The notes under the pieces were generated by a model. It was not told where the DNA came from and ran no database searches. It saw only the letters and a list, made by a program, of their open reading frames with translations. A DNA stretch of 64,000 nt from an uncultured Candidatus Saccharibacteria bacterium (GTDB lineage Bacteria > Patescibacteriota > Saccharimonadia > Saccharimonadales > Saccharimonadaceae): assembly GCA_937859515.1 (NCBI GenBank), contig CALMAK010000018.1, positions 40,215-104,214 of the forward strand, in the 5' to 3' direction. The number at the start of each line of letters is the position of its first letter. Position 1 is the stretch's first letter. This document shows positions 44,360 through 47,042 of this stretch, piece after piece. Made by a program: the position numbers and the translations under genes.

Positions 44360-44404
44360 GGGGTAGTGTATGCTATGGCTATAAACTAATTGTGGAGAAA
44401 CGAA

Positions 44405-44818
44405 ATGGCAGAATCAAAAAAGACGCAGCGACCTTCAGTAAAGAGTGTTGCGGCAAAAACAAAAGCGAAAGCAGCTTCAGCAGTGAAGGGCGGTGCTGGA
44501 CATGGTAGTGGATTTGTAGAATTCATTCGCACCCAAGGTGTGGTTGGGCTTGCGGTCGGTCTCGCAATCGGTACCGCAGCAGGCGATACGGTGGCAAAAT
44601 TGGTTGAAGGATTCATTAACCCAATCGTACAATTTCTCGTAGGATCGCAAGCAGGCCTGCAAGCTGCCGTATGGCATGTCGAGCTATGGGGACGTAATGC
44701 GGACTTTGCATGGGGGGCATTTGTGTCATCGGCGATTACGTTGCTTGCGACAGCACTCGTAATCTACTGGATTATCCATGTGTTGAAGCTAGATCGCCTT
44801 GATAAGAAAAAAGATTAA
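44405..44818 (+). CDS. mscL: Large-conductance mechanosensitive channel MscL
   Basis: 137 residues from ATG 44405 with GTGGAGAAACGA upstream. A Lys/Ala-rich N-terminal extension of about 35 residues precedes the conserved FVEFIRTQGVVGLAVGLAIG (TM1) and the C-terminal TM2 (ITLLATALVIYWIIHVL), ending in a basic tail. MscL opens under membrane tension to release solutes. The basic extension is unusual. Confidence 0.92.
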   Translation: MAESKKTQRPSVKSVAAKTKAKAASAVKGGAGHGSGFVEFIRTQGVVGLAVGLAIGTAAGDTVAKLVEGFINPIVQFLVGSQAGLQAAVWHVELWGRNADFAWGAFVSSAITLLATALVIYWIIHVLKLDRLDKKKD

Positions 44819-44864: not shown

Positions 44865-44893
44865 AATTCTAAATAATACCAAGTTTAACTTCT

Positions 44894-44969
44894 CCACGAG
44901 AAGTATTGGTTGGTAGTAGAGTCACCCTGATGTGGTCTTCTCATCTACGCTACCCAATACTCCTCGTGG
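44894..44969 (-). ncRNA. Conserved 3' RNA element, copy 1
   Basis: On the minus strand, just after the stop of the interrupted gene, a long stem (CCACGAG-AGTATTGG against its complement, 44894-44969) encloses a 33-nt core, 44948-44916. The core starts GTAGA, ends TCTAC and contains CCACATCAGGGTGAC. A 35-nt relative (45850-45884) follows the paralogous gene. The closing pair differs in a compensating way (A-T here, G-C there). A regulatory or mRNA-end element is inferred. Confidence 0.6.
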
Positions 44970-44976
44970 ATTGAAG

Positions 44977-45660
44977 TTAGGCGGCGATTTTGCCTCGATC
45001 TCGATTGGGACGGCCGTGGAACGAACGGTCATCTCGCTTGGTCCGCTTGGACGATCGCCCTGACTTGCGCTTGCGTTGCTTGCGAGCAGGATCGTACTTG
45101 TCAAACACACTGACAGGGACGTACCAGATCGCACCGACGCATACGAGTTCATGGTCCTGGACCATTCGCTCGATCGCAACGTTCAGTAGCCATCAGCGCA
45201 TCAGATCGACGAATTGATCGCGTTCGCGTTTGCTCTCTTGGAATCCATACTCCCGCCTGAAAAAGCTCGGGCAGATTTCGGATCCGCTGATGAGGGCTGA
45301 GCGGCGGCGCTTAGTGTCCTGTGGCGACTTAAGCCGGTGCTCGTCTGGTGTCATGAGATGCTTGCTCTCACGATGACGCTGCTTACGTACCCTGTTGGCA
45401 CGGCGGCTATCGGACGCATCAATGAAATCAGTAAGGGCGTTGATGCTATCACCGACGCCTCTCACCTCATGACACGTGCCACGTCCTGTCAACGGAACAC
45501 TGGCAAACCGAATCGCTTCCAGTACGCGCGTTCGTGCGATGCGAACTCGCTTTTCGTACTCCTCTCCGTTTCCGAGAAAGTCCTCGGGTCGTTCCTTGTA
45601 GAAAGTTGTGTCGATTGACACGTAGCGAGCGTTTCCGCTCGCATCACGAGCTATAGGCAT
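44977..45660 (-). pseudogene. GC-rich paralogue interrupted by one in-frame TGA
   Basis: ATG 45660 follows TTAGGAGCACT. 155 codons lead to TGA at 45195-45193, and the same frame then continues for 71 codons to TAA at 44979-44977. The downstream part (IERMVQDHELVCVGAIWYVP) aligns with the C-terminus of the gene at 45905-46405 (IESLVREQAIWHDGCVWNIL), and the upstream part aligns too (IARTRVLEAI, RGTCHEVRGVG). So the stop splits one homologous protein. It may be a recent nonsense mutation, programmed readthrough (next codon TGG) or two separate proteins. The C-terminus is very basic. Confidence 0.65.
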
Positions 45661-45811
45661 AGTGCTCCTAACTTCTGAGGTGCGTCATCGCGCGGATTTG
45701 CGCCGAGTATAGCCTCGCAGGGATGATAAATATTATTAAAGATTGCTTAACGGAAAAAGGCAAGCACAACAGGATTAACGGTGAGTCGTGTTACTTTCAA
45801 AGAAATGACAG

Positions 45812-45833
45812 CGCCCCCTCGTGTGAGGGGGCG
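45812..45833 (-). terminator. Hairpin CGCCCCCTC/GAGGGGGCG
   Basis: Nine perfect G-C-rich pairs (45812-45820 with 45825-45833) around a GTGT loop, downstream of the conserved RNA element on the minus strand. No long T run. Confidence 0.65.
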
Positions 45834-45839
45834 TATGCG

Positions 45840-45891
45840 CCGTGGTTCGGTAGGGTCACCTTGATGTGGCTATTCCCATCCTACTACACGG
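45840..45891 (-). ncRNA. Conserved 3' RNA element, copy 2
   Basis: Minus strand, after the 166-residue gene: outer CCGTG/CACGG stem, inner GTAGG/CCTAC, and the core CCACATCAAGGTGAC (core span 45884-45850). It matches copy 1 at nearly every core position with a 2-nt indel. Position after the coding region is the same in both. Confidence 0.6.
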
Positions 45892-45904: not shown

Positions 45905-46405
45905 TCATCCTCCTTGTCGGACGGTACGATGTGCGGTTTTGGCCGCTTTCGTTACCTTCGTGATTGCACGCTGCTCGGCACGGTATGTCGATAGCGTGGA
46001 TGGCAGGATATTCCAGACGCACCCGTCATGCCAGATGGCCTGCTCGCGAACGAGACTTTCGATTGCTAGCCGGATTGTCCGTTCATGAATCTGTCTCACG
46101 AGCTCAGCGTAGCAAGGCCGGGCTAACCCCAGCAGGTGCGCTGGTAGCGACGGAAGGGTTGTGAGCGATACAAATGACTTCATTCGTCGATCAAGCACGA
46201 ACGTCGCTAGTTCACTCTGCCTGGGACCGGCACCACCAATGTAGTGGTTGGTTCCACGGATTGCTCCGGAATGTACCTCAGTAGCGCGGTCAAACGCGCG
46301 TAGTACTCGTCCACGTGCAATCTGCACGACATCATGAAGCTGGGTCGCATCATAGACATCGGACAGATCAAACTGTGGAATCCATGGCCGTCTTTGACTG
46401 GACAT
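45905..46405 (-). CDS. GC-rich single-gene cassette, intact member of a two-gene family
   Basis: 166 residues from ATG 46405, preceded by CCAGGAGTATCTC; the longer frame to 46438 has no such site. No signal. Conserved with the interrupted neighbour: IARGRVLRAF, RGTNHYIGGAG, and IESLVREQAIWHDGCVWNIL, a helix followed by strands that could be a winged helix. The tail is basic (TKVTKAAKTAHRTVRQ), so nucleic-acid binding is possible. No known family. It carries the conserved RNA element downstream. Confidence 0.7.
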   Translation of the reverse strand: MSSQRRPWIPQFDLSDVYDATQLHDVVQIARGRVLRAFDRATEVHSGAIRGTNHYIGGAGPRQSELATFVLDRRMKSFVSLTTLPSLPAHLLGLARPCYAELVRQIHERTIRLAIESLVREQAIWHDGCVWNILPSTLSTYRAEQRAITKVTKAAKTAHRTVRQGG

Positions 46406-46505
46406 GAGATACTCCTGGTCTTGTAGGTGCGACAACACGGATTGGATGCCAATTTAGTTATACACTGCTCGCCCTCATGGCACAAGGCATGGTATAGTAG
46501 CTGTG

Positions 46506-47042
46506 ATGAGCGAGAGCGTAAAACTTCTTTGGATTGACCTTGAGATGACGGGACTTAGTCCTACTGACGACAGAATCATGGAGATAGCAGCGATTGCAAC
46601 CGATTGGGATTTTAATGAGGTCGCGACGTACGAAGCAGTAAAAAAGGTCGGCACTAATCTTATGAAACAACGTATGGTGGGTGAGTTCTGGGACAAGTAT
46701 TCGGGCGTGCGTGATGCATTGCAGGCGCAGAACGAGACTGGCAAGAATGGTCGTACGGTCGAGAATGAACTATTGGCATTTCTTGATAAGCATTTTGCTG
46801 ACGGCGACCAGGTAATTTTGGCGGGCAATTCGATTCATCAAGACCGAAAATTTATCGAGAATGAATGGCCACGTCTGAACGAACGGTTGCATTACAGGAT
46901 GCTCGATGTTAGTGCTTGGAAAGTAGTTTTTGATGGCAAGTACAAAAAGAAGTTCGCCAAACCCGAAGCTCACCGCGCAATGGAAGACATCCGAGGCAGT
47001 ATTCAGGAGCTCAAGTATTATCTTGGCAAAGTTCGCGTCTAG
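46506..47042 (+). CDS. orn: Oligoribonuclease
   Basis: 178 residues, DEDDh exonuclease that degrades 2-5 nt RNA. Motifs: WIDLEMTGLSP (DxE), GNSIHQDRKFI and HRAMEDIRGS (His and Asp). TGG-TATAGT ends 7 nt before ATG 46506; a GTG 3 nt earlier is less likely. Confidence 0.95.
   Translation: MSESVKLLWIDLEMTGLSPTDDRIMEIAAIATDWDFNEVATYEAVKKVGTNLMKQRMVGEFWDKYSGVRDALQAQNETGKNGRTVENELLAFLDKHFADGDQVILAGNSIHQDRKFIENEWPRLNERLHYRMLDVSAWKVVFDGKYKKKFAKPEAHRAMEDIRGSIQELKYYLGKVRV

Follow-up and report, generated by a model that had tools for sequence, protein, structure and literature searches.

Phage morons are single genes that carry their own 3' end signals, differ in composition from their surroundings and are present or absent between core genes. 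An integron cassette joins one ORF to a folded element, attC, lying directly 3' of it, and the contents of the site vary; in attC and REP sites, the recognition bases lie at the foot of the hairpin. REP/RAYT hairpins occur in many intergenic copies per genome and place GTAG beside an imperfect hairpin, and type III toxin-antitoxin loci combine a protein gene with a small structured RNA (ToxI). Protein-binding or stabilizing elements of 3' UTRs are structured RNAs located on the sense strand between stop codon and terminator, and small RNAs derived from 3' UTRs usually consist of a compact conserved fold followed by a terminator.

Here we describe an RNA element that follows single GC-rich genes in Saccharibacteria, epibionts with reduced genomes, and that is a structured RNA motif matching no described family. 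The gene and its element resemble a moron in their single gene, 3' end signals, foreign composition and variable presence between core genes, but they lie at recurrent hot spots of a bacterial chromosome and combine very divergent proteins, modeled as winged-helix-like, with a conserved 3' RNA core. As in integron cassettes, one ORF is directly followed by a folded element and the contents of the site vary; here, however, it is the tip of the hairpin that is conserved, no integrase was seen and modules lacking the core turn over too. GTAG stands beside an imperfect hairpin and a RAYT-like gene lies near one copy (genome G214), as for REP sequences, whereas a genome carries only one or two strong copies, invariably behind a single kind of gene, and the GTAG has CTAC as its pairing partner, a combination that changes to GCAG:CTGC. 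ToxI likewise couples a protein gene to a small structured RNA, but the present element is single-copy, downstream and free of repeats, and the protein model is winged-helix-like. With 3'-UTR elements it shares its sense-strand place between stop codon and terminator, although it is exchanged among unrelated mobile ORFs and matches no known family. Among the papers found by searches on Saccharibacteria (noncoding RNA, hammerheads, hot spots, integron cassettes) and on structured RNA in Patescibacteria, titles and abstracts mention no element of this kind. Together, conservation and placement suggest that the motif serves the mRNA of a mobile single-gene unit.

An RNA element behind two GC-rich genes

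The window, a stretch of 64,000 nucleotides on contig C18, comes from a 0.9-Mb genome (G000) that is 98% complete. Within it, two GC-rich minus-strand genes sit between an mscL-like and an orn-like gene (Table 1). The original prediction held that a conserved RNA element with a different outer stem in each case follows both members of one gene family, and this was borne out. Both minus-strand cores are present and placed alike relative to their genes, beginning in the sense direction 28 nt past the stop codon in copy 1 and 20 nt past it in copy 2; the outer stems do differ, and profile comparison shows homology between the types to which the two genes belong (hhalign E 1.5e-16). The region of copy 1 (44885-44985) folds strongly, at -44.8 kcal/mol with z = -6.3, and the fold of copy 2 is weaker (z = -2.3). 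In a pattern scan of the 0.9-Mb genome, the 20-nt 3' half of the core occurred at two places only, even with three mismatches allowed, and the reversed control pattern had no match. Recent tandem duplication of the window units, which had been named as a finding that would overturn the prediction, is excluded because their DNA likeness is limited to a 31-nt core (E 5e-4), all other matches having E values of about 1 or worse.

Table 1. Coordinates of the genes and RNA features at the locus, and of hammerheads in other loci
Feature	Position	Strand	Remarks
mscL-like gene	44396..44818	+	Convergent with gene 1; left hot-spot border; name by inspection
RNA element copy 1 with outer stem	~44894..44969	-	Stem arms 44954-44969 with 44894-44909, enclosing the core
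Core of copy 1	44908..44948	-	R2 model 42.4 bits; descriptive and no test, as the copy is in the R2 training set
Gene 1 (type A)	44977..45660	-	227 codons, one in-frame TGA at 45193-45195; ends RSFHGRPNRDRGKIAA
Terminator-like hairpin, separate, 3' of element copy 2	45812..45833	-	9-bp stem, weak T run
RNA element copy 2 with outer stem	~45840..45891	-	Stem CCGUG/CACGG, enclosing the core; own arms pair better than swapped arms
Core of copy 2	45845..45884	-	R2 model 39.5 bits; descriptive and no test, as the copy is in the R2 training set
Gene 2 (type B)	45905..46438	-	177 aa; winged-helix-like model with long basic C-terminal helix
orn-like gene	46503..47042	+	Divergent from gene 2; right hot-spot border; name by inspection
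Hammerhead	L009:1191-1245	-	
Hammerhead	L030:2235-2289	+	
Hammerheads	L066-L078		Leaders

Structure and distribution of the RNA core

The element consists of a core of about 40 nt inside a long, copy-specific outer stem, P1, the sequence of which differs in nearly every genome. Inside P1 lies P2 (GUA:UAC or GCA:UGC), followed by a bulge that is usually GAU, and then P2b (GGG:CCC, GAG:CUC or AGG:CCU). An AA/GA internal loop separates P2b from P3, which is either CC:GG or GC:GC, a third pair (A-U, G-U or U-A) being common, and the near-invariant terminal loop has 7 nt, AYAUCAV. Arms of P1 fit their own partners better than swapped ones (averages of -26.2 versus -14.1 kcal/mol), with the own arm ranked first in 11 of 18 cases. 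A pseudoknot between the GAU bulge and the AUC of the loop, considered by eye, was rejected: it is broken in several copies and sterically unlikely.

Because the MAFFT alignments were padded with N by hand at length-variable positions and so lean on the author's reading, we used shuffled and slid controls. Over 16 copies, 95.7% of cells are paired, with 15 two-sided cells and five pairs showing two-sided compensatory changes. The alignment scores 0.324 for covariation, a value that none of 500 shuffles reached (0.145), and slid versions of the alignment pair at only 25-50%. Structure-preserving changes were present in a 14-copy set as well. One predicted detail did not survive: the pair beside GTAG, in which an A-T to G-C change had been taken as compensating, does not covary, and its A is part of the nearly invariant GAU bulge. 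The actual A-U/G-C exchange lies one helix further in, where P2b reads GAG:CUC versus GGG:CCC in 7 versus 9 of the 16 copies. Across 11 genera and unrelated ORFs the core covaries and its loop stays invariant, which implies that the core is under selection. It is better conserved than the neighboring proteins. None of the 4227 models of Rfam 15 matches at the element, whether at the gathering score or at permissive E-values.

To judge the distribution of the genes and the element we combined protein and RNA searches, in genomes that are mostly metagenome assemblies and with model E-values that are rough. With a loose cut-off, 18 of 151 genomes of the family showed distant homologues of gene 2, many of these matches being weak, and a profile search found the gene family in 19 of 394 genomes. 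A first covariance model, R1, comprising only P2 and P3, was built from six element copies beside those genes and run over 394 genomes, where it gave nine additional strong copies (E up to 0.0012), all in other genomes of the same Saccharibacteria family. Eight of these follow a sense ORF, 13-29 nt past its stop codon. The remaining one, in G114, starts right at the end of a contig; a truncated family gene lies at another contig end of that genome. Most ORFs ahead of the R1 copies had been missed by the protein profile. Two genomes, G214 and G131, matched R1 at lower score, and matches at E of about 0.04-0.08, which fall inside ordinary genes or lack such an ORF, were taken as chance.

R1 was superseded once P2b had been seen, and the second model, R2, gave a final set of 16 strong copies in 15 of 374 genomes. 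Overall, the element lies 13-45 nt past the stop codon on the same strand, and no strong copy in the searched genomes lies away from such a gene. The search, seeded beyond the window copies, thus yielded the further copies with structure-preserving changes that the prediction called for. The prediction of an element that follows members of a GC-rich gene family is strongly supported, and two points extend it: the genes ahead of the element include ORFs missed by the family profile, and in family members adjacent to tRNA-Glu a plain long hairpin often takes the place of the element. When genomes were drawn from the whole order, only those of the same family matched the element, and the protein profile, run on a draw from the class, found nothing beyond the family. 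An exact-pattern scan of GTDB gave 25 matches, five of them full elements and the other 20 at or below 18 bits with the full model; four of the five are in Saccharibacteria and the fifth is identical to the element of G016. The same kind of scan of IMG/VR gave 0 matches.

Module genes and their exchange at hot spots

Type A comprises gene 1 and its homologues in G187, G039 and G138, and type B comprises gene 2 and others. A third ORF set (G034, G140, G208 and G195) has sequence kinship to types A and B that is weak at best (hhalign P 0.0026), and its AlphaFold2 model (pLDDT 78) has a helix and strand order similar to that of the gene 2 model (pLDDT 87). Foldseek returned weak winged-helix-like matches only, none at E <= 0.001. 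The module proteins are very divergent, have basic tails and, as modeled, are probably winged-helix-like; a C-terminal motif, RxFHGRPxRDR, is found in type A and many type B proteins. The products of genes 1 and 2 have no match in Pfam or PHROGs, nor has the family one in NCBIfam, and tblastn searches with three module proteins, two against phages and one against plasmids, found nothing significant. Ratios of dN/dS of about 0.2 in two close pairs indicate purifying selection on the protein. GC3 of the module genes, from values entered by hand, averages 0.735 versus 0.50 in ribosomal-protein ORFs of the same genomes and is higher in 16 of 16 genomes; the ribosomal-protein control argues against high expression as its source. 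The in-frame TGA of gene 1 is a Trp codon in type A relatives, and past it the frame retains the coding sequence for the conserved C-terminus; read-through, an error of assembly or a recent nonsense change may account for it.

Modules recur at a few places: at mscL/msrB/orn, upstream of tRNA-Glu(UUC) and next to bL25-, pyrH- and argS-like genes (names by inspection). These hot spots are empty in relatives or filled with a different module. The mscL/orn site lacks a module in seven relatives, in five directly (G104, G116, G150, G031 and G077) and in two with msrB present (G058 and G032). In G045, of the same genus as the window genome, the site that holds both modules in the window is occupied (locus L111) by a different GC-rich gene of 85 aa, the 3' hairpin of which is plain and has no core. 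Modules with the core adjoin tRNA-Glu in G208, G202, G195, G214 and G131, whereas gene-family members at this place (L008, L010 and L032-L034) have a plain 12-18-bp hairpin in place of the core, followed by a separate terminator; in L031 the tRNA is partly masked. Tandem modules occur in the window and, upstream, in G208 and G195, and G195 has a putative promoter, TTGACT..TATAAA, picked out by eye. A RAYT-like Y1 transposase gene (G214) and a serine recombinase gene (G131) were seen by inspection downstream of the element near tRNA-Glu (L056 and L057).

The element is also exchanged among the genes, and RNA subtype and protein type are uncoupled. Cores with or without three extra bases occur with type A, type B and the third set, and both P1 arms of G167 are common to G214 and G131, the ORFs of which show no similarity. 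We read the module as a putative moron-like mobile unit made of one GC-rich gene and an exchangeable 3' RNA domain.

Proposed role of the element and rival explanations

Its sense-strand place between stop codon and terminator, together with a conservation above that of the protein, makes a cis-acting domain of the 3' UTR the best fit. We give a probability of roughly one half to the reading in which the element forms a structured domain of the 3' UTR of a moron-like module, most likely a protein-binding site that stabilizes or regulates the mRNA. In the proposed order, a GC-rich gene for a basic winged-helix-like protein would be followed by the RNA element and then a terminator, and the element would act in cis within its mRNA. 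Together with the internal loop, the near-invariant loop would form a putative binding site, either for a protein of the cell or for the basic one that the module itself encodes, and the long P1 stem would shield the 3' end; expression of the foreign gene may thereby be stabilized or autoregulated. Because a plain hairpin suffices for the members adjacent to tRNA-Glu, the core is not indispensable for such genes. Counting against the cis-acting reading, rapid exchange of the element is expected of a mobility site too.

The chief rival is a site of recombination or mobilization, folded as single-stranded DNA or as RNA, with an attC-like role and a core recognized by a recombinase or transposase. 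One gene with one 3' hairpin per module, hot spots of differing contents, cassette-like exchange at a fixed place (as between G000 and G045, and at the empty mscL/orn sites), tandem modules, the swapping of the element between unrelated ORFs and the transposase and recombinase genes adjoining two copies would all suit such a site. We nevertheless consider it unlikely. It is weakened by G045 and the tRNA-Glu copies, which show turnover at the same hot spots of modules that lack the core; the conserved part of the hairpin is its tip, whereas attC and REP recognition bases sit at the foot, and conserved R'/R'' ends of the attC kind are absent from an outer stem that differs in nearly every genome; and the modules have no recombinase gene as a constant neighbor. 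Also unlikely is a 3' UTR processed into, or separately transcribed as, a trans-acting small RNA. A compact conserved fold followed by a terminator and a conserved unpaired loop speak for it, but a scan found no promoter-like site in the window region, and there is no conserved seed besides the 7-nt loop. We hold it rather improbable that the module acts, for example in defense, competition or gene transfer, through a ribonucleoprotein composed of the RNA and the fast-evolving basic winged-helix-like protein, which would make the RNA core the hallmark of a new mobile ribonucleoprotein system in Saccharibacteria.

The remaining explanations deny the core a role of its own or assign it a catalytic or toxin-related one. 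In some copies, that of G134 among them, a T run comes directly after the outer stem, so that this stem may double as a terminator, and plain long hairpins stand at the same place in other modules; yet that the outer stem is a mere strong terminator or 3'-end hairpin, with the core an inherited passenger, is quite improbable given the selection on the core implied above and the separate terminator-like hairpin downstream in the window and in several other loci. The functions raised by the original prediction, namely processing, an sRNA or an RNA-antitoxin-like role, drew no positive evidence. A gene of about 100-240 codons beside a structured RNA recalls a type III (ToxIN-like) system, but the single copy without tandem repeats, a position downstream of the gene and not between promoter and toxin, and a winged-helix-like protein model that matches nothing in Pfam, PHROGs or NCBIfam leave an RNA antitoxin of that type very improbable. 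Least probable of all is an undescribed self-cleaving ribozyme that trims the 3' end of the mRNA: an internal loop and a bulge that are compact and hardly vary, set around short helices, could suggest one, and the same genomes also have true type III hammerheads, but none of the 4227 Rfam models matches at the element. Both the antitoxin and the ribozyme readings lack support. A compact RNA core has been kept while the adjoining proteins diverged beyond recognition. As the marker of a class of GC-rich single-gene modules missed by protein searches, the core can therefore serve as a search handle by which their origin and function become testable.

Hammerheads were considered in two further ways and set aside. 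A hammerhead-like reading of the element or its complement was rejected, as Rfam has no match at the element and the hammerhead matches lie elsewhere in the loci; nor are hammerheads a part of the module, since they adjoin only two or three module loci and otherwise lie elsewhere. No paper linking hammerheads and Saccharibacteria was found among the titles and abstracts. Type III hammerhead ribozymes themselves were detected in 24 of 38 genomes of the family (E <= 0.1), one above the Rfam cut-off and many at 35-45 bits with an intact core. They often lie just upstream of genes, such as dnaK- or kup-like ones, and two are found in a divergent leader directly upstream of a module.
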